A DNA stretch of 60,671 bases from Lachnospiraceae bacterium. GTDB lineage: Bacteria > Bacillota > Clostridia > Lachnospirales > Lachnospiraceae. This document shows, in pieces, positions 21,541-30,007 of this stretch. The notes beneath the pieces are model-generated. The model had not been told where the DNA came from and searched no databases. It saw nothing but the letters and a program-made list of their open reading frames with translations. The translations under genes and the position numbers were made by a program. Numbering within the stretch: the stretch's first letter is position 1; each line of letters opens with the position of its first letter. The stretch lies in the NCBI GenBank assembly GCA_023663945.1, contig JAMPGL010000021.1, forward strand, positions 1 through 60,671, in the 5' to 3' direction.

Positions 21541-22989
21541 TTATCCGATCAGCCAGTCATACATTTCCTGATATTTCGAAGCTGAAACCTGCCATGAAAA
21601 ATCCGCCGCCATCGCGCGGTCCACAATCTTATTCCACTCCCGTTTCCTGTCGTAATAAATCTTTTCGGCGTAGCGGATGGTTGCAAGCATCTCATGGGCG
21701 TTATAGTTCACAAAGGAAAAACCGGTTCCGGTACTTTCGTATTCATTATATGCCTGAACTGTGTCTTTCAGTCCTCCGGTTTCTCTTACAATCGGCACCG
21801 TGCCGTATCTAAGGCTCATAAGCTGGCTTAATCCGCAGGGTTCAAACAGGGAAGGCATCAAAAACGCATCGCTTGCCGCATAAATCTTATGGGACAGCGC
21901 CTCAGAATAATAAATATTGGCAGAAACCTTGTCATTGTACTTCCAGTCAAAATGACGGAACATGTTTTCGTAACGTTCTTCGCCGGTTCCCAGCACCACA
22001 AGCTGGATATTGTCCTGACAAAGTTCGTCCATCATATAGGCAATCAGGTCAAATCCCTTTTGGTCGGTCAGTCTGGATACCACGCCGATCATAAGCTTCC
22101 GGTCATCCTGATCAAGGCCTAATTCCGCCTGCAGTGCACGTTTGTTCTTAATCTTTTCTTTGCGGAAATTCACCGCATTGTAATGATGTTCAATGTATTT
22201 ATCCGTCTCCGGATTAAACTCGTCATAATCGATTCCGTTAACAATTCCGCGCAGGTCATTGGAGCGGGCGCGCATCAGCCCGTCTAACTGCTCCCCGTAA
22301 AACTCTGTTTTAATCTCATCCGCGTAGGTCTGGCTTACAGTCGTGATCGCATCCGCATAAACCAGTCCGCCCTTTAACAGATTGGCATCCTTAAACAATT
22401 CCAGCTTATCCGGAGTAAAGAAGTAAGAGGGAAGCCCCGTAATGTCCTGAACCTCTTTGACACCCCATCTGCCCTGAAACTTTAAGTTATGGATAGTCAT
22501 TACCGACTTGATTCCGCGGTAAAACTCATTTCCCTGAAAACGCTCTTTCAGATAAACGGGGATTAAGCCGGTCTGCCAGTCATGACAGTGAATCAGATCC
22601 GGTCTGAAACCGACCACCGGCAGAATGGAAAGCGCCGCCTTGGAAAAAAATGCGTACTTCTCAATTTCAAAAAGAGCGTTATCGCTGTAAGGCTTAAAGC
22701 CGTTAAAGAACATCTCATTATCAATAAAATAATATTTAACTCCGTCCACCTCGGCGTTCAGGACTCCCACATACTCATTTTTCCAGTGAAAATCCATGTA
22801 AAACGAGGTCACAAAGTTCATTTTATCCTTCATTTCCTGAGACATGCAGGTATATTTGGGAAGAATGACCCTCACATCAAAATACTGCTTATCAATACAC
22901 TTGGGAAGTGAGCCAACCACATCCGCAAGTCCGCCTGTTTTAATAAATGGAACTCCTTCTGATGCAACAAAAAGAATATTTTTCATCAT
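21541..22989 (-). CDS. glgA: Glycogen synthase (ADP-glucose starch/glycogen glycosyltransferase)
   Basis: GT5 family enzyme that extends alpha-1,4-glucan chains from ADP-glucose. The 482 residues have the N-terminal VPFIKTGGLADVVGSLPK substrate-binding motif, the DWQTGLIP segment, and the C-terminal GT-B fold with SLFEPCGLSQLMSLRYGT. Two adjacent in-frame ATGs exist at 22989 and 22986; GGAGG spacing fits the second at least as well. No other glg genes lie in the window, so it appears separate from a glycogen operon. Confidence 0.93.
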   Translation of the reverse strand: MMKNILFVASEGVPFIKTGGLADVVGSLPKCIDKQYFDVRVILPKYTCMSQEMKDKMNFVTSFYMDFHWKNEYVGVLNAEVDGVKYYFIDNEMFFNGFKPYSDNALFEIEKYAFFSKAALSILPVVGFRPDLIHCHDWQTGLIPVYLKERFQGNEFYRGIKSVMTIHNLKFQGRWGVKEVQDITGLPSYFFTPDKLELFKDANLLKGGLVYADAITTVSQTYADEIKTEFYGEQLDGLMRARSNDLRGIVNGIDYDEFNPETDKYIEHHYNAVNFRKEKIKNKRALQAELGLDQDDRKLMIGVVSRLTDQKGFDLIAYMMDELCQDNIQLVVLGTGEERYENMFRHFDWKYNDKVSANIYYSEALSHKIYAASDAFLMPSLFEPCGLSQLMSLRYGTVPIVRETGGLKDTVQAYNEYESTGTGFSFVNYNAHEMLATIRYAEKIYYDRKREWNKIVDRAMAADFSWQVSASKYQEMYDWLIG

Positions 22990-23187: not shown

Positions 23188-23706
23188 TTATCTATACTGC
23201 AAGCGTATCTTATCTGCAATCAAGGCAATAAACTCCGAATTAGTGGGTTTGCCTTTGCCGGTATTAATGGTATAGCCGAACATTGCGTCCAGCGTTTCCA
23301 TCCTTCCGCGGTTCCACGCAACCTCAATGGCGTGCCTGATAGCGCGCTCCACCCTGCTTGAGGTGGTCTGGTATTTCCTTGCAATGGTAGGGTAAAGCAC
23401 CTTGGTAATGGAACCCAGCATCTCCGGGTCCTCCACGGACATAATGATTGCTTCCCTGAGATACTGATACCCTTTAATATGCGCCGGAACCCCAATCTCG
23501 TGAATCATATCTGTTACATCTCTTTCCAGGTCATGGCCGGACAGCCTGGTTTCCTCTTCTCCTGTGGGAAGCTCCAGCTTTGCTCCAGTGCTTATGGAAG
23601 GCACCGTTATCATGATCTGAAATTCTCTCTCCATGTGAATCAGGTCGCCTAAAATCTTGTAAACCTTTTCTGCATCTTTGGTCGTAGTTAAATTAAGCTG
23701 TTCCAT
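23188..23706 (-). CDS. Spo0A-type DNA-binding protein lacking the receiver domain
   Basis: 172 residues. Residues about 62-170 are a complete Spo0A C-terminal DNA-binding domain: [20 protein letters not shown] (69-88), [16 protein letters not shown] (97-112), recognition-helix region [18 protein letters not shown] (114-131) and [17 protein letters not shown] (153-169). The usual 120-residue receiver is absent. In its place is a unique 60-residue N-terminus with no phospho-acceptor signature. The start is supported by AAGGAAGGG before the ATG. Only 138 bases separate it from ldcA, so a receiver is not hidden upstream. It lies five genes after spoIVB, where full-length spo0A normally sits. It may be a receiver-less paralogue or a truncated Spo0A; a full-length copy elsewhere cannot be excluded. 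Confidence 0.88.
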
Positions 23707-23843
23707 ATCATTATTCCCTTCCTTTTCCCAAATTTTGATATAAATTTATTATAAGGAACATGAAACAGCAATTCAACCTTCATTCATCGCACAAATTTCC
23801 GCCATTCTCCAAGGCTTTTGTAAAACTCCATCGAATAATCTTT

Positions 23844-24908
23844 TTATTTAAATATCATCTCGATTTCCAGTCCGCCATTTTTCGATTGTATTTTTGCAAA
23901 GCTCCCCGTCACCAAAGGCATTGCCGGCGGAAGATGCCCCAAATCCGCATCCATGATAACAGGGATCCCCCTTTTCCGTGCCGTGGGAAGGACTGCCTCG
24001 TACTGATCAAGCCCCATCATCTCCTGCCCGTATACAAGCGGTCTTCCAATCAAAAATCCCTTCGCATGCTCAAACCAGCCGGCATGCTCCATCTGCCACA
24101 TTGCCCTGCGGATGGCAAACACATTCAAATCACAGCTTTCCAAGAACCAGATAAATCCATCCTCTTTATATTTTTGAACGAAATCCTTCACCCGGTCAAA
24201 CCGAGTCCCTAAAAGATTTACCAGACAATCCATGCATCCGCCGATCAACCTGCCCTCCATTTGACAGTCCTCGGAGAGCGTCATGATTGTTTCCGTCCCT
24301 TTTGCTCCGCCCTGCGGAAGATAACAGCGGATTTGGGAATCCTCCGTACAGTGATAAGGCAGTAAGGGATGTTCTTCATCCTTAATCCCTTCCTTTTCCC
24401 ATTTATCATAATTCGTCAATATTCTCTTTCTGCCCATCAACACATCCATGGCATCCAAAAGGGATTGATGTCTCGGCTCCATTCCAAAGGCGGCTGCGCA
24501 GGGACCGTAGATGGATGCGGTATCGCAGAGCGTTGTCAGCAGGAACGTCATATTTGTATTGTCGGAGTATCCCATAAACCACTTGGGTTTCCCTTCCCTG
24601 ATCGCTTTAAAATCCACGTATTCCAAAATCTCGCACATCAGTTCCCCGCCCCCGCAGGAAATCAGACAGTCGCTTTTATTATCCAGATAACAGGTTTCCA
24701 GCTCTTTACCGCAGTTCTGCGGCGTACTGCTGATTCCGATGCCGTCTCCTAAAAGGCAGTTCGATCCAAGCACCGTAGAAAAGCCATCCTCCCGCCATTT
24801 TTTCAGGGCGTTTTCAAAAGCCGCCCGGTATGGCTGTATGTTGCATCCAAAGGAGGGCGCAGCGAATCCAATGGTTCCGTTTTCTTTTAAAAATTCAGGG
24901 TATCTCAT
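23844..24908 (-). CDS. LD-carboxypeptidase (S66 family)
   Basis: Probably trims L,D-linked residues from peptidoglycan peptides or cleaves related peptides (LdcA/MccF family). From the ATG at 24908 it has 354 residues; a longer frame upstream overlaps the next gene. The nucleophile Ser115 is in GYSDNT; the Glu in WFLESCD and His in ADLGHLPPAM complete the Ser-Glu-His triad expected of S66. GTIGFAAPSFGC is the N-terminal family motif. It has no signal peptide, so it acts in the cytoplasm. The gene is 17 bases after the hybrid pseudokinase and is likely in one operon with it and the HD-GYP regulator. Confidence 0.87.
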   Translation of the reverse strand: MRYPEFLKENGTIGFAAPSFGCNIQPYRAAFENALKKWREDGFSTVLGSNCLLGDGIGISSTPQNCGKELETCYLDNKSDCLISCGGGELMCEILEYVDFKAIREGKPKWFMGYSDNTNMTFLLTTLCDTASIYGPCAAAFGMEPRHQSLLDAMDVLMGRKRILTNYDKWEKEGIKDEEHPLLPYHCTEDSQIRCYLPQGGAKGTETIMTLSEDCQMEGRLIGGCMDCLVNLLGTRFDRVKDFVQKYKEDGFIWFLESCDLNVFAIRRAMWQMEHAGWFEHAKGFLIGRPLVYGQEMMGLDQYEAVLPTARKRGIPVIMDADLGHLPPAMPLVTGSFAKIQSKNGGLEIEMIFK

Positions 24909-24925
24909 TGACAGGTCTCCGTCTC

Positions 24926-25792
24926 TTACTTGATATATTCCATTAATGTGCGGATACATTCCTTCGCGTCAATCGGCTTGGCAATGTGCGCATTCATTCC
25001 GCTCTCCCTGCTCCTCTGCACATCGCCGGAAAATACGTCCGCCGTCATAGCGATAATCGGGAGATTGCGGTCTTCGCGGTTCATGCCGCGGATTTCTCTG
25101 GCGGCCTCATAACCGTTCATGACGGGCATCCGAAGATCCATCAGGACAGCGTCATAATATCCAATCTCCGATGCTGTAAACATATCCACGCATTCCTTTC
25201 CGTTCTCTGCCCATTCCAGTTCCAGCCCAAACTCCCCGAGGGCTGCATCCGCCACTTCCCAGTTAATCTCAATATCCTCCGCAAGAAGGATTTTCCTCCC
25301 GTCCAAGGAGCCACTCACCGCTTCCGCACTGTCTGCGGTCCACTCCGCACGGGCTCCCGGCTCTTCCTGATTGTCATCCGCACTGTCGCAAAACTGTTTG
25401 GCATCATCCTCCGCCAGAATATTCCAAGGCGTAAGCTCCATATCTTCGGACAAAATACTTACATCAGGTATCTCATTAATCAACTCAAGCAGGCGCTTAC
25501 TAAAAAGTTTAATCTTATGCAGGCATTCTTCCACCCGGATGGTGTCTTCCGTATTCTTGAGGGCAATCTCCGTCATGCCGATAATTGCATTCATAGGCGT
25601 GCGGACATCATAGCTCATGCTGGAAAGAAAATCGTTTTGGAATCTGCCGGCAGCCGCCGCTTCACGCCGCGCCGCCTCCAATTCCCGGATTTTCTTTTGC
25701 GATAAGCGATAATACCAAAGGAAAACGCCAGTCATCAGGACTAAAATTACCGCAAAAACACTAATGATCACTACAATCTGCATACAATTCAA
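24926..25792 (-). CDS. Degenerate hybrid histidine kinase: HisKA without His or ATPase, fused to a receiver
   Basis: 288 residues: an N-terminal membrane helix (about 5-27), a coiled region, a HisKA-like dimerisation segment (about 50-110), and a receiver domain (about 165-287). Two features of a working kinase are missing. The phospho-acceptor position of the H-box is Tyr61 (SYDVRTPMNAIIG where SHDVRTPMN is usual; codon TAT for CAT), and no HATPase domain with N, G1 or G2 boxes lies between HisKA and receiver. The receiver is intact: the ILLAEDIEIN acidic pair, phospho-Asp219 in VLMDLRMPVMNG, Thr250 and Lys272. It may serve as a membrane-bound phosphate sink or scaffold; that is inference. 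Cotranscribed between the HD-GYP regulator and ldcA. Confidence 0.85.
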   Translation of the reverse strand: MNCMQIVVIISVFAVILVLMTGVFLWYYRLSQKKIRELEAARREAAAAGRFQNDFLSSMSYDVRTPMNAIIGMTEIALKNTEDTIRVEECLHKIKLFSKRLLELINEIPDVSILSEDMELTPWNILAEDDAKQFCDSADDNQEEPGARAEWTADSAEAVSGSLDGRKILLAEDIEINWEVADAALGEFGLELEWAENGKECVDMFTASEIGYYDAVLMDLRMPVMNGYEAAREIRGMNREDRNLPIIAMTADVFSGDVQRSRESGMNAHIAKPIDAKECIRTLMEYIK

Positions 25793-25804
25793 TCCTTATT
25801 TCAA

Positions 25805-26872
25805 TTATCTTTTATGCCCTGTGTCCTTTTCCGCCTTATTTAAGGCAGATTCAAACACTTTTAGTATCTTAGGGTTAAAGGCTCCGCATTCGCCGTTGTA
25901 AATCATGGATAACGCCGTCTCCCTGTCAAATTTCTTTTTGTATACCCGGTCTGAGGTCAGGGCGTCATATACGTCCACCAACGCCGTCACCTGCGCCCAG
26001 ATAGAAATCTCATCTCCGCAGATTCCATCCGGATACCCTCTTCCATCCCATTTTTCGTGATGATGCCGGCAAATATCATAAGCATAGCTGTATACTCCCG
26101 CATCCATAATATCCGGAATCTTACGCAGAATCTCACAGCCTTTGGTGGTATGCTGTTTCATAATATCAAATTCTTCCGCCGTCAGCCTGCCCGGCTTATT
26201 TAAAATCTGATCCGGGATAGAAATCTTTCCAATATCGTGAAGACATGCGGATGAGGCGATTTTATCAATCTCAGCATCCGGCATCCGGTATTCCTCGTAG
26301 GTATCGCTGACCTCCTTCATCAGTACGCCGGTCAGGTAAGAAACCCGTTTTACATGTTCCCCGGATTCCAGATCACGGAATTCAATGACTGATGCCAAAA
26401 CCTCTATCATGGACTTCATCAGTTCACTAAGCCGTGCCACCTGCTTGTCTACGATCTTTTCCAGCTGATGCCGATGCTCGTACAGCTCGATCACGCTGTT
26501 GACCCTGCATCGCAGGAATTGGGTCATGAAGGGCTTATTGATCACGTCGATTGCCCCAAGATCATAACTCTGCATCAGCATATCTTCGCTGTCTGCAGCC
26601 GTAATCATAAAGACCGGAGTCTCCTCAATCCGTCCTGTCCGATTCATCTCCCTAAGCACGTCCAGTCCGTTCACCTCCGGCATCAGCAGATCCAGAAGAA
26701 CTGCTGAAATGTTTTCATTGTGCGCTAAAATGTCAATTGCTTCTGCACCTGATCCGGTGTCGATGATGTGATAAGTGTCTTTGAATATTTCTGCCAAAAT
26801 CATCCGATTGATTTCAACGTCATCAACGATTAATAGTGTCTTTTCATCCGTTAATGTATTTGTTGCTGCCAC
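25805..26872 (-). CDS. Response regulator with HD-GYP phosphodiesterase domain
   Basis: 355 residues. The N-terminal receiver has acidic pair IVDDVEINR, phospho-Asp61 in LLDLLMPEVNG and Lys113 in NKPF. A helical linker leads to an HD-GYP domain (about 155-345) with LHDIGK (211-216), the His-rich RHHHEKWDGRGYPDG (269-283) and VDVYDALTSDR. Such proteins degrade cyclic di-GMP when phosphorylated or in response to a partner. It is the first gene of the operon with the degenerate hybrid kinase and LD-carboxypeptidase and has its own promoter. A genuine kinase partner is not in the window. Confidence 0.9.
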   Translation of the reverse strand: MAATNTLTDEKTLLIVDDVEINRMILAEIFKDTYHIIDTGSGAEAIDILAHNENISAVLLDLLMPEVNGLDVLREMNRTGRIEETPVFMITAADSEDMLMQSYDLGAIDVINKPFMTQFLRCRVNSVIELYEHRHQLEKIVDKQVARLSELMKSMIEVLASVIEFRDLESGEHVKRVSYLTGVLMKEVSDTYEEYRMPDAEIDKIASSACLHDIGKISIPDQILNKPGRLTAEEFDIMKQHTTKGCEILRKIPDIMDAGVYSYAYDICRHHHEKWDGRGYPDGICGDEISIWAQVTALVDVYDALTSDRVYKKKFDRETALSMIYNGECGAFNPKILKVFESALNKAEKDTGHKR

Positions 26873-26922
26873 GGTAACATCTTTCCTTTCCTTACTCTGT
26901 TTCCGCCTTTAATTTCGATAGG

Positions 26923-26951
26923 ATTTTACCATATAAGACCGGAAAAGTCAA
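26923..26951 (-). promoter_or_regulatory. Sigma-A promoter of the HD-GYP operon
   Basis: On the minus strand TTGACT (26946-26951), 17 bases and TAAAAT (26923-26928), about 50 bases before the gene. AAGGAAAG precedes its ATG. It lies just past the end of the AbiE pair, so the two modules are separately transcribed. Confidence 0.75.
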
Positions 26952-27043
26952 CGTTTGGCTGCTTCTGCTATTACGGGTATCATAAGGCAAAAATCCGTCA
27001 AGGAGTACGCTCATCTGTGTTGATTTCTGCTTCTTTCGCTTAT

Positions 27044-27952
27044 TCAATGAAACATACCGCTATCTGCTAAAGTGACCATTTCATCTATGACCTGCTCATA
27101 TTCGACCATATCATCCACAAAATATTCTGTAATACTAATATAATCCTGCCTGAAAAAATCCTGTTCACAAAATTTATGTATCAATGCAGGTATATCCACC
27201 CCTTCCTTTGCAGAAGGGCATATCATCATTCCTGCCCTATGCTTTCTGACCTCCTTAATCAGCCTGCTAAACTCTTCATTAAAAACTACATGTTCCTTTA
27301 ATTTATATAAGTCATATAAATGTCTGGAATATCTCTTTGATTTTCCCTGTATGTAATAGTCGCATAAAGCAAAAACCTTATCAATATATGTTCTGCTGAT
27401 TGACTGCAAATTCATTTCAAATGGCTCCAGCTCAAATTCCTTAATTAAATTCTGATTATCCAATTCCAAATATTGCCTTACATAACTATCTATATTTCCC
27501 CTTTCTGTCGGAAAAGAATAAGATGCTAATGCGGTTTCTACCTTAACACCTTCTGTTAAGCTGTTTTCCGCATATGTATCTAAGGGTTCATATTGAAATA
27601 TATAACAATTATAATCCTTATCACTTTCTATTTTATTCCAGTTTGAGATCGGCATATCAAGTTCTTCACTAATTTCCTTCATTACATTATATTTTAGCTT
27701 TTTTCTTCTAGCTTCTCCTAAATGTTCGGAAAAAGTAATGTCAATATCTTCCGAAAACCGTTTTATTACATGAAATCCCTTCGAAAGTGATGTGCCGCCT
27801 TTAAAAACACATTTGGCAGACTTTTGGGATAGAAGTTTTAAAATCATCGTGACATAATAATCCTTTTCTACCACCGCAACAGCCAAATTCATCTGAACCG
27901 CGGTATTTGTAATAACCTCTTGGAATAATTCCCTGTCTTCATGCAAATACAT
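27044..27952 (-). CDS. AbiEii-type nucleotidyltransferase toxin
   Basis: 302 residues with the nucleotidyltransferase motif of the AbiEii family: KGGTSLSKG near 51-59 and SEDIDI near 67-72, where Asp69 and Asp71 bind metal. Members of the MenA/AbiEii group inactivate cellular targets by nucleotide transfer to RNA. It overlaps the antitoxin gene by 14 bases. Together they form a type IV-like toxin-antitoxin or phage-abortive pair, sitting between spoIVB and the HD-GYP operon where spo0A would be expected. Confidence 0.88.
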   Translation of the reverse strand: MYLHEDRELFQEVITNTAVQMNLAVAVVEKDYYVTMILKLLSQKSAKCVFKGGTSLSKGFHVIKRFSEDIDITFSEHLGEARRKKLKYNVMKEISEELDMPISNWNKIESDKDYNCYIFQYEPLDTYAENSLTEGVKVETALASYSFPTERGNIDSYVRQYLELDNQNLIKEFELEPFEMNLQSISRTYIDKVFALCDYYIQGKSKRYSRHLYDLYKLKEHVVFNEEFSRLIKEVRKHRAGMMICPSAKEGVDIPALIHKFCEQDFFRQDYISITEYFVDDMVEYEQVIDEMVTLADSGMFH

Positions 27953-28559
27953 TTTCTAACCTCATCTCATAGATTGATTTATATACTTTCAACGGAAAAT
28001 AGCCAATATACTGGTCTACAGCATTCCTCGTAATCTGAAATTTCCTAATATATCCGGCAACCTGCTCCCTTGCGTTCTGCTCATCATCGCTGTATTCATC
28101 AATATCTTTCAGCAGTTCAAGTAATTGTAAAACAATATGGTTGCTCTCATTTATCTCGACAGGCGCCCTCCGGACTATATATACCCTGTTTCCCACAAAT
28201 ACCTCACGAACAATGGCTGCCATATTATTGCTGGTAATCTCCTCCTTCACAGGCACCTGCATAGAAATTCCCATCTTGTTTGCCAATGTGTGTCCGGCAT
28301 AATATCCCATGATACGCCCCATTCTGGAAATATATTTATATCGGGCAACAATATCTGGTGCAAGAGCTGTCATTCCTTTCAATCTGGACATTTGGGGGAT
28401 ATAATATATTCCCTGTTCATACCGTTTCACCTCTCCGCTATCCGTCAGCTTTTTAAACTTTTGCCTGATATAAGCATCTGACATTCCATCTATTTTTATA
28501 TCCTGTAGAAAGATTGGTTCTCCAGGATTATAATTTTCTTTTATATATTCAAACAGCAT
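27939..28559 (-). CDS. AbiEi-type antitoxin / transcriptional repressor
   Basis: 206 residues from the ATG at 28559, chosen for the GGAGG 5 bases upstream. The N-terminal winged helix (DAYIRQKFKKLTDSGEVKR, IYYIP) and the C-terminal part (YYAGHTLANKMGI) fit the AbiEi/DUF6088 antitoxin family. These repress their own promoter and counter the AbiEii toxin. An inverted repeat overlaps the transcription start region, consistent with autoregulation. Confidence 0.82.
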   Translation of the reverse strand: MLFEYIKENYNPGEPIFLQDIKIDGMSDAYIRQKFKKLTDSGEVKRYEQGIYYIPQMSRLKGMTALAPDIVARYKYISRMGRIMGYYAGHTLANKMGISMQVPVKEEITSNNMAAIVREVFVGNRVYIVRRAPVEINESNHIVLQLLELLKDIDEYSDDEQNAREQVAGYIRKFQITRNAVDQYIGYFPLKVYKSIYEMRLENVFA

Positions 28560-28590
28560 GTGTTCCTCCAAAATCCAAAGCGTAAATAAC

Positions 28591-28648
28591 AAATAATAAT
28601 ATTATATATTACTATTTGTATTATACTCATTCTTTTTCTGCACGTCAA
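28591..28648 (-). promoter_or_regulatory. abiE promoter and candidate dyad operator
   Basis: On the minus strand TTGACG (28643-28648), 17 bases and TATAAT (28620-28625). Immediately downstream 28591-28617 is an AT-rich inverted repeat (arms AAATAnTAATAT), placed to cover the start site. AbiEi antitoxins bind inverted repeats in their promoters, so this is the likely site. Confidence 0.65.
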
Positions 28649-28693: not shown

Positions 28694-30007
28694 TCAATGT
28701 ACCAGCATCTCCTCTATAAAAATCCCATACCCCTTAGTGGGATCCTGCACCAGAACATGAGTCACTGCGCCGATCAGTTTGCCGTCTTGAATGATGGGGC
28801 TTCCGCTCATCCCCTGCACAATGCCGCCTGTGACGGCAAGAAGCTCAGGATCCGTAATCTTGACCACAATTCCCCGGTTCACATTGTCGTTTTCCAGATT
28901 AATGTCCACGATCTCCACATCGTAAATCTCCGCCTCTCCTCCCAGCGAACAGATAATCTGAGCTTCCCCTTTCTTGATCTCCTGTTTTAATCCCAGAGGA
29001 AGATAATCGTAAACCGCGCTTTGCTCCGTCTCCGGCGTGCAGATTCCAAAAATTCCTTTTGCGGTATTATCGGTAATGCTTCCCATAATATTCTTGTCGT
29101 CATATTCAATAAAACCGGTAAGCTCCCCCGGTGCTCCGGTACTGCCCCTTGTAATCCCAATGATTTCCGTATGGTAGAGGGTCCCCTTTGCAAGGCTCAT
29201 AAGCGTTCCGGTGTCAATATCGTTAATCCCGTGCCCTAACGCCCCAAAACAGCCGTTTTCATCTATATAAGTCATTGTCCCTACCCCTTGGGCGTTATCC
29301 CGGACCCATATTCCCATCTTATATTCCCCGCTTTTATTTTGTTCCGGGCGCGCCTTAATTTTCAAAATAGATTCTCCTCTCTGCAGGGTAAAATATAGTT
29401 CCTGCCCTTCGCAGTGGTCGATCATTTCCACCAATTCCTTCTTTTCGTTGATTTCCTGATCGTTAATCTCCAAAATATAGTCTCCGGTCTGAAAAACGTA
29501 TTTTCCGGGGCTTAAAGTCTGTCCATCTTCACCTTCAAATTCTCCGATTCCTACAATTAAGACCCCTTTTGTTTTTACATAAATTCCAATCGGAATCCCT
29601 GCCGGTTTCAGCCGAATGTCCTGTATGACTTCAACATCCACCTCTTTTAGGGGAATCATTCCGAACAGCTTCAGGTACAGCTTATACTGGTCTACCTGAT
29701 TTGCCTTGACCACCACTGTCTTTCCAAAATCCACATGCAGGCTTTGCTGTGCGCTGGTATTCTGCCCGGCACTTCCGCTTGTTTCGATTGCCTCCCGATA
29801 CAATTCACCGGAGGCGGGCACGCGAAAATCCAGCGTCTGATCCATCCCCGCCTTGAGCATAATGGTAGAAGGGACACTGCTCCACATGGAATAATAGAGG
29901 GAGGCAAATACTGCGATAATACCCGCAGAGAGCAAAAAATATAAAGTTTTTTTATAGATACGCCGCCGGAAACCCTGCGGCTTTACCTGTTCTTCCACAA
30001 AATTCAC
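28694..30007 (-). CDS. spoIVB: SpoIVB serine peptidase
   Basis: Secreted from the forespore to trigger pro-sigma-K processing by cleaving SpoIVFA. 437 residues: a membrane helix (about 22-42), a PDZ domain (about 135-220), and an S55 peptidase domain with His259 in GALGHGINDI and Ser401 in VQGMSGSPIIQDGK. It follows recN by 183 bases, in the common Clostridia order. The gene that usually follows, spo0A, is replaced by the AbiE pair. Confidence 0.95.
   Translation of the reverse strand: MNFVEEQVKPQGFRRRIYKKTLYFLLSAGIIAVFASLYYSMWSSVPSTIMLKAGMDQTLDFRVPASGELYREAIETSGSAGQNTSAQQSLHVDFGKTVVVKANQVDQYKLYLKLFGMIPLKEVDVEVIQDIRLKPAGIPIGIYVKTKGVLIVGIGEFEGEDGQTLSPGKYVFQTGDYILEINDQEINEKKELVEMIDHCEGQELYFTLQRGESILKIKARPEQNKSGEYKMGIWVRDNAQGVGTMTYIDENGCFGALGHGINDIDTGTLMSLAKGTLYHTEIIGITRGSTGAPGELTGFIEYDDKNIMGSITDNTAKGIFGICTPETEQSAVYDYLPLGLKQEIKKGEAQIICSLGGEAEIYDVEIVDINLENDNVNRGIVVKITDPELLAVTGGIVQGMSGSPIIQDGKLIGAVTHVLVQDPTKGYGIFIEEMLVH

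Follow-up and report, generated by a model that had tools for sequence, protein, structure and literature searches.

By its domain content, its locus and its place in trees, the gene at positions 23188..23706 of the window (the whole stretch of 60,671 nucleotides of Lachnospiraceae DNA that was analysed) is the spo0A orthologue itself, the only Spo0A of its genome and not a paralogue. Its product, here termed Spo0A_S, lacks the core of the receiver domain. We regard it as probable that the protein is active without phosphorylation and that the sporulation decision has moved to the amount of Spo0A_S, to its interplay with P2, a second receiver-free protein with a Spo0A_C domain, or to both. Phosphorylation of the Spo0A receiver is the switch that starts endospore formation according to the accessible text of a review (PMC11210211) and of a comparative study (PMC3533761), and a further comparative study likewise describes Spo0A as phosphorylated in the part available (PMC6136694). 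A gut Lachnospiraceae clade with a receiver-less sole Spo0A breaks this rule. The features of the region are the following:

23188..23706, reverse strand: spo0A_S, receiver-deleted Spo0A orthologue of 172 aa (ORF, Pfam, TIGR02875, trees)
23611..23706, reverse strand: residues 1-32, remnant of the Spo0A receiver, beta1-alpha1-beta2 (hhalign, shuffled control, dN/dS 0.16)
23533..23595, reverse strand: residues 38-58, variable linker, probably disordered (dN/dS about 1.1; pLDDT under 50 at residues 38-55)
23194..23532, reverse strand: residues 59-171, Spo0A effector (DNA-binding) domain (phmmer to 1fc3/1lq1, Foldseek, invariant recognition helix)
23716..23724, reverse strand: ribosome-binding site AAGGAAGGG of spo0A_S (sequence)
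23748..23753, reverse strand: -10 element TATAAT of the predicted spo0A_S promoter (sequence)
23771..23776, reverse strand: -35 element TTGAAT of the predicted spo0A_S promoter, 17-bp spacer (sequence)
23785..23790, reverse strand: GCGATG element upstream of the -35, common to the P2 promoter (motif comparison)
21541..22989, reverse strand: glgA, conserved downstream neighbour of spo0A (locus comparison)
23844..28592, reverse strand: five genes between spoIVB and spo0A_S (DUF6088, AbiEii, REC+HD, HisKA+REC, LD-carboxypeptidase), which do not belong to the system
28694..30007, reverse strand: spoIVB, normal upstream neighbour of spo0A (locus comparison)

The initial annotation had described a full Spo0A DNA-binding domain with its own ribosome-binding site and start, and this description holds: the frame of 172 aa opens with ATG behind AAGGAAGGG, and the Pfam model Spo0A_C matches residues 64-167 of the product with an E-value of 3e-47. 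The phmmer program aligned the crystallised domains 1fc3 and 1lq1 of the PDB with residues 59-171, and an AlphaFold model adopts the Spo0A effector fold, with Foldseek TMt values of 0.94 to 1lq1_D and 0.90 to 1fc3_A and a range of 0.88-0.94 over seven chains. The recognition-helix residues 207, 208 and 210-221 (B. subtilis numbering) are invariant in all 118 short-form loci, which encode 106 different proteins, and are identical to those of B. subtilis. At the other end of the protein, a Pfam search up to E 1 found no receiver family, PF00072 included. The equivalog model TIGR02875 of NCBIfam covers the product only at model positions 144-258 of 262, with a score of 199.6 bits that falls 0.4 bits short of the cut-off of 200.

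The earlier reading of about 60 N-terminal residues without a receiver signature needs correction, as the first 32 of these residues are recognisably receiver. A profile built from 89 N-termini, each 38 aa long, was compared by hhalign with 20 full-length Lachnospiraceae Spo0A proteins; residues 1-32 of Spo0A_S and residues 1-32 of the receiver aligned from the first position on (probability 95.5, E 1.6e-8, score 46.8, against a best score of 18.9 among 100 column shuffles). Thus, spo0A_S begins where spo0A begins and has lost an internal stretch, namely the rest of the receiver, including the core that bears the phospho-aspartate. On this alignment the N-terminus of Spo0A_S is a receiver stump left by an ancestral internal deletion. 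The AlphaFold model places a helix at residues 12-24 with modest confidence, the N-terminal blocks scoring a low 56-71. The stump (residues 2-36) evolves under purifying selection, with a dN/dS of 0.16, compared with 0.046 for the effector domain and about 1.1 for the linker; each value is the ratio of two sums, taken over 245 pairs for the stump, 153 for the effector and 181 for the linker, from at most 88 sequences and with the pairs filtered for a synonymous difference of 0.05-0.6.

Among relatives the gene order is nadK-argR-recN-spoIVB-spo0A-glgA, with glgA after the short spo0A and with the short gene 105-234 bp from spoIVB in 12 of the 22 relatives measured (470-7005 bp in the other ten). 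The gene had previously been seen as merely the nearest relative of spo0A, but in these relatives it occupies the spo0A locus itself, and its position between spoIVB and glgA there is that of an orthologue, with five genes intervening in the window. A full-length spo0A lies between spoIVB and glgA in ten of 20 full-length loci of other genera, compared over only 1.5 kb to each side. The five genes already reported to break the spoIVB-spo0A order were found in the window. Probes of the relative L064 detected spoIVB, the LD-carboxypeptidase gene and the short gene in a row and the other four intervening genes absent, indicating that the five-gene gap is local to the window; the insertion was for this reason rejected as the cause of receiver loss. 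The REC+HD and HisKA+REC genes were likewise dropped as candidates for the missing half of a split regulator because both are missing where spoIVB lies directly upstream. The genome G416 has the classical order with one 815-aa gene between spoIVB and spo0A. Three side observations concern these intervals: the gap between spo0A_S and glgA in G416 (L362, 9418-9725) holds a 64-bp tandem repeat of 4.8 copies with 97% matches and several open frames; the HisKA and receiver protein of the window (24926-25792), in which no ATPase domain was found, adjoins the response regulator with receiver and HD (HD_5) domains; and the DUF6088/AbiEii pair lies at 27044-28592 between spoIVB and spo0A, AbiEii being a toxin family of type IV toxin-antitoxin systems.

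The short form is found in at least 33 of 397 family genomes (at least 28 of 334 genera) in a survey with 256 matching genomes among the matches listed; the count takes the at least 33 genomes matched from residue 1 or 2, leaves out G308, which has a different form, and adds G220, whose short form was read directly although its match starts at residue 53. One carrier, G416, is a single-contig genome of 3.19 Mb. Among the best 80 of at least 580 relatives, all genomes except that of strain 0.1xD8-71 are MAGs, mostly labelled Lachnospiraceae, and some MAGs with the short Spo0A bear the genus name Acetatifactor. In trees the short-form effector domain is nested among those of full-length Spo0A. 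The short effector domains, 45 rows, form one clade (96/98) in a tree restricted to domains of 80 bits or more, as do the 34 short-form rows (100/99) in a tree of effector domain plus glgA with 55 rows and 575 columns, built on a chosen subset of loci from which rows L051, L037, L045 and L060 were dropped. The sister of this clade (96/95) comprises G277, which has a full-length Spo0A in a 280-aa frame, and G308. In the Spo0A of G308 (L358) a different internal deletion has brought receiver residues 1 to about 31 directly against the beta5-alpha5 end of that domain, and a search at E 0.001 found no receiver in it. G308 pairs with G277, its closest relative (98/94), so that two losses of the receiver core, one in G308 and one in the short-form clade, are the simplest account on these trees. 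As a separate observation, L060 (G219) and the genomes G106, G187, G198 and G224 have long Spo0A genes in tandem pairs, co-oriented and no more than about 1 kb apart.

The genome of the window contains two Spo0A_C genes, neither of which encodes a receiver: spo0A_S and, on contig C82, a gene of 123 aa. No full-length Spo0A was found in it or in 35 short-form genomes, and a search with the Spo0A receiver detected no Spo0A-type receiver in trans in the window's genome. Every one of the 37 genomes of the genus has Spo0A_C, and 35 of them match it in full (E 1e-45 or better) within a frame of 153-239 aa; the exceptions are G027, where a contig end cuts spo0A, and G012 (82% complete), where only the second gene, P2, was present. 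The stump itself was read in 30 genomes of the genus; the assembled spo0A of G073 is interrupted by an in-frame stop, and in G010 the frame opens inside the stump. Longer Spo0A_C frames of the genus are found in G025 (two, 288 aa each) and G029 (one, 435 aa) and score at most 76 bits, and a 244-aa frame of G039 (116 bits) has no receiver to the eye. In three of the 35 short-form genomes there are proteins of 263-288 aa that do carry a receiver and end in a weak Spo0A_C-like domain of 38-84 bits (49-84 bits at L251 in G025:C218, L250 in G136:C13 and L253 in G123:C63, two of the proteins being adjacent in G025); we take these proteins for other regulators.

These searches bear on three alternatives to an inherited, receiver-deleted and sole Spo0A. 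That an assembly error or a local frameshift in one MAG created the short gene might be suspected of a source genome in 107 contigs at 94% completeness; the recurrence of the same form across the family, single-contig G416 included, its presence as a short frame in 35 of the 37 genomes of the genus with the stump in 30, and the purifying selection on it exclude the loss of the receiver-coding part in assembly, which the initial annotation had allowed for, and make this scenario scarcely credible. Hardly better placed, and highly improbable, is the other option initially raised, a paralogue in competition with a full-length Spo0A from another place in the genome: G103 and G159 each hold a full-length Spo0A plus a short protein, but their short proteins fall outside the short-form clade, the genome search found no full-length spo0A at another position in the window's genome, full-length Spo0A occurs in none of the 35 short-form genomes, and the short gene stands at the spo0A locus. 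We consider it quite unlikely that the response regulator has been split, with a separate protein supplying the receiver in trans. The N-terminal remnant, being under purifying selection, could be a docking part, and stand-alone receivers do occur in short-form genomes; yet the best match to the Spo0A receiver was at most 66 bits in each of 15 short-form genomes (at most 41% identity in the rows listed), whereas the same search returned 166-233 bits at 63-90% identity in all six full-length genomes, and with the gap of 105-234 bp the locus has no room for such a gene in 12 of 22 relatives.

A further alternative is that the clade no longer sporulates, Spo0A_S having been repurposed for stationary-phase functions while the sporulation genes decay, which we judge unlikely, if less so than the preceding three. 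The kinase input is gone with the receiver, and the sporulation genes bear some marks of reduction: in the short-form genomes (e.g., L153-L170) only the C-terminal, phosphatase half of SpoIIE remains, in frames of 386-495 aa, although the full-length genomes G053 and G130 (2 of 16) likewise have no more than this half, and there is one SASP gene in each of 34 of the 35 short-form genomes, as opposed to two or more in 15 of 16 full-length relatives. Moreover, a MAG-based predictor called 24 of 24 Lachnospirales MAGs of one set non-sporulating, one of them an Acetatifactor, in the available part of that study (PMC12536801). Against this stands the retention of the checked spore genes in 62 chosen, non-random genomes (35 short-form from 16 genera, 20 of them from the genus and 15 from other genera; 16 full-length; 11 without Spo0A). 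SpoIIE and SpoIVA were found in 35 of 35 short-form genomes and SpoIIGA and SASP in 34, and each of the four in all 16 full-length genomes, while the Spo0A-less genomes yielded SpoIVA, SASP and a strong SpoIIE match in one of 11 each and SpoIIGA in none, every positive coming from G078; the SpoIIE match lies under the curated cut-off in 61 of the 62. The short-form genomes also retain Spo0A-type promoters along with the recognition helix. The receiver is thus lost and the checked spore genes are kept, so that the sporulation decision must come by another way, and the short-form bacteria would still sporulate.

The target promoters were recovered by footprinting, which gave TTTGTCAAA and TTTGACAAA; a scan for exact TGTCGAA had overlooked most of them. 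Within the genus, the predicted spoIIE promoter has TTTGTCAAA upstream and TTTGACAAA over the -35, and that of spoIIGA has TTTGACAAA over the -35 followed by a 21-bp spacer and TATAA. Counted over the best 30 loci each for spoIIE and spoIIGA, a 0A-box match (TTGTCRAA on either strand) is present in 16/18 spoIIE and 19/22 spoIIGA regions of short-form genomes and in 5/12 and 4/8 regions, respectively, of full-length genomes, where shuffles lead one to expect 0.01-0.06 per region. The 21-bp spacer, counted without a control, recurs in 17/18 and 19/22 regions of the short-form and in 6/12 and 5/8 of the full-length genomes. Spo0A promoters of B. subtilis likewise have a long spacer and an R in the 0A box. 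These patterns indicate that the 0A-box promoters of spoIIE and spoIIG have been kept in short-form genomes, their recognition by Spo0A_S being predicted.

The promoter of spo0A itself has a different history. TGTCGAA is found within 250 bp upstream of 15 of 21 full-length spo0A genes (0.4 expected) versus 12 of 106 short-form loci (2.9 expected), so that the loss of the 0A box is incomplete. Conversely, GCGATG precedes spo0A at 68 of 106 short-form loci (9.5 expected) versus two of 21 full-length ones (1.0 expected). The spo0A promoters of G277 and G308 show neither element by the patterns used. The distance from GCGRTG to a following TATAA is 37-38 bp in 72 of its 84 occurrences. The element, as GCGATG(AATGA), is common to the spo0A_S, P2 and spoIIGA promoters (noted in the window, upstream of L230, and at L177, L183, L184, L188-L190 and L195): GCGATG lies upstream of P2 at 15 of 34 loci (2.1 expected), and GCGRTG precedes spoIIGA in 16 of 22 short-form genomes versus one of eight full-length ones. 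Within the genus, its distance from the -10 at spoIIGA mostly exceeds that at spo0A by about 20 bp. There are 31 exact copies of the 11-mer GCGATGAATGA in about 1.9 Mb of loci, 24 times upstream of spo0A and seven times upstream of spoIIGA, with 0.9 expected in total. Over 14 whole genomes, GCGATGNNTN27-30TATAMT has 31 matches (12 at spo0A, eight at P2 and 11 elsewhere) against five for the reversed control, two of the genomes having none. In the window's genome the architecture GCGATGNNT-N27-30-TATAMT is present at exactly two sites, those of spo0A_S (23748-23790) and P2.

P2 in this genome (G000:C82:7051-7416; L230, L267) is the receiver-free 123-aa protein already mentioned, with little beyond its Spo0A_C domain. 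Its neighbours recur among 41 P2 loci, namely mpg at 18, degT at 20 and a phoU-like gene at 11. P2 proteins form one group that includes those of G277 and G308 (38 rows, 100/99) in a tree of domains scoring at least 120 bits, for which the rows of the genus were thinned and the G232 candidate was omitted. With a P2 alignment of 27 loci (of 32 retained from 34), all 16 newly found short-form genomes score at least 201 bits and G308 151 bits, and no gene of 34 full-length genomes reaches 182 bits, the second gene of G277 scoring 166 and seven others under 78. P2 is not universal: genomes G004, G024 and G036 of the genus (88, 93 and 59% complete) yielded a single Spo0A_C match each, and the candidate of G232 is too divergent for certainty. 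As the P2 group includes G277, with its full-length Spo0A, and G308, P2 is on this grouping most simply older than the receiver loss. The P2 recognition helix carries G or Q at position 210 in 28 of 32 sequences, K at 211 in 30 and N at 218 in all 32, where every short Spo0A has S, R and H; P2 therefore probably reads a different DNA site from Spo0A_S.

We accordingly favor, as the probable reading, a Spo0A that acts without phosphorylation. By comparison, what an ancestral internal deletion spared is about the first 32 residues of the receiver, with a variable linker and an effector domain that is intact and strictly conserved, and a whole clade inherits this form as its only Spo0A. Freed of the inhibitory, phosphorylatable receiver, Spo0A_S would bind 0A boxes and activate spoIIE and spoIIG whenever it is present. 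A positive-feedback 0A box upstream of spo0A would then have become harmful and been lost. The decision would shift from phosphorylation by histidine kinases to the amount of Spo0A_S, perhaps set via P2 at GCGATG, to interplay with P2, or to both. The original suggestion of a receiver-less, phosphorylation-independent regulator at the spo0A locus is thereby supported, in that the protein probably works without phosphorylation. A more specific version, which we put forward only tentatively, is that a receiver-free pair replaced Spo0A phosphorylation: P2 may bind GCGATG at its own promoter and those of spo0A_S and spoIIGA and so time Spo0A_S, having arisen with the receiver still intact and made it dispensable, after which the receiver was lost at least twice. 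The favored reading predicts a new control point, consisting of P2 and the GCGATG element.

The presence of spo0A serves as a genomic marker of spore formers (PMC8340488, PMC11536998, accessible text), and a Lachnospiraceae survey reports, in its available portion, the loss of spo0A in some gut genomes otherwise rich in sporulation genes (PMC11170972). Caution is due here, as a marker of presence or absence is blind to the capacity of Spo0A for receiving a signal. No description of a receiver-less Spo0A clade was found in the accessible portions of the literature searched.

Spo0A_S is a Spo0A by descent and by definition not a response regulator. With the full-length Spo0A of Bacilli and Clostridia it shares the effector domain, the recognition helix, the locus and the predicted target promoters; unlike it, Spo0A_S lacks the receiver core with its phospho-aspartate, mostly has no upstream 0A-box match and is usually accompanied by P2. 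Aspartate-less receivers (ALR) keep the receiver fold. These too are, in the accessible text on them, response regulators freed from phosphorylation, the receiver there being without its aspartate (PMC4395418), whereas in Spo0A_S the receiver core has been deleted. The isolated DNA-binding domain of Spo0A binds its targets without phosphorylation, as seen in vitro with the laboratory-made Spo0A-DBD of C. difficile, also a receiver-free effector domain, in the available part of that work (PMC3485338). In distinction from this construct, Spo0A_S is natural, is the only Spo0A of its bearers and retains a conserved N-terminal remnant and a linker, and it represents a master regulator that has, in nature, escaped two-component control.
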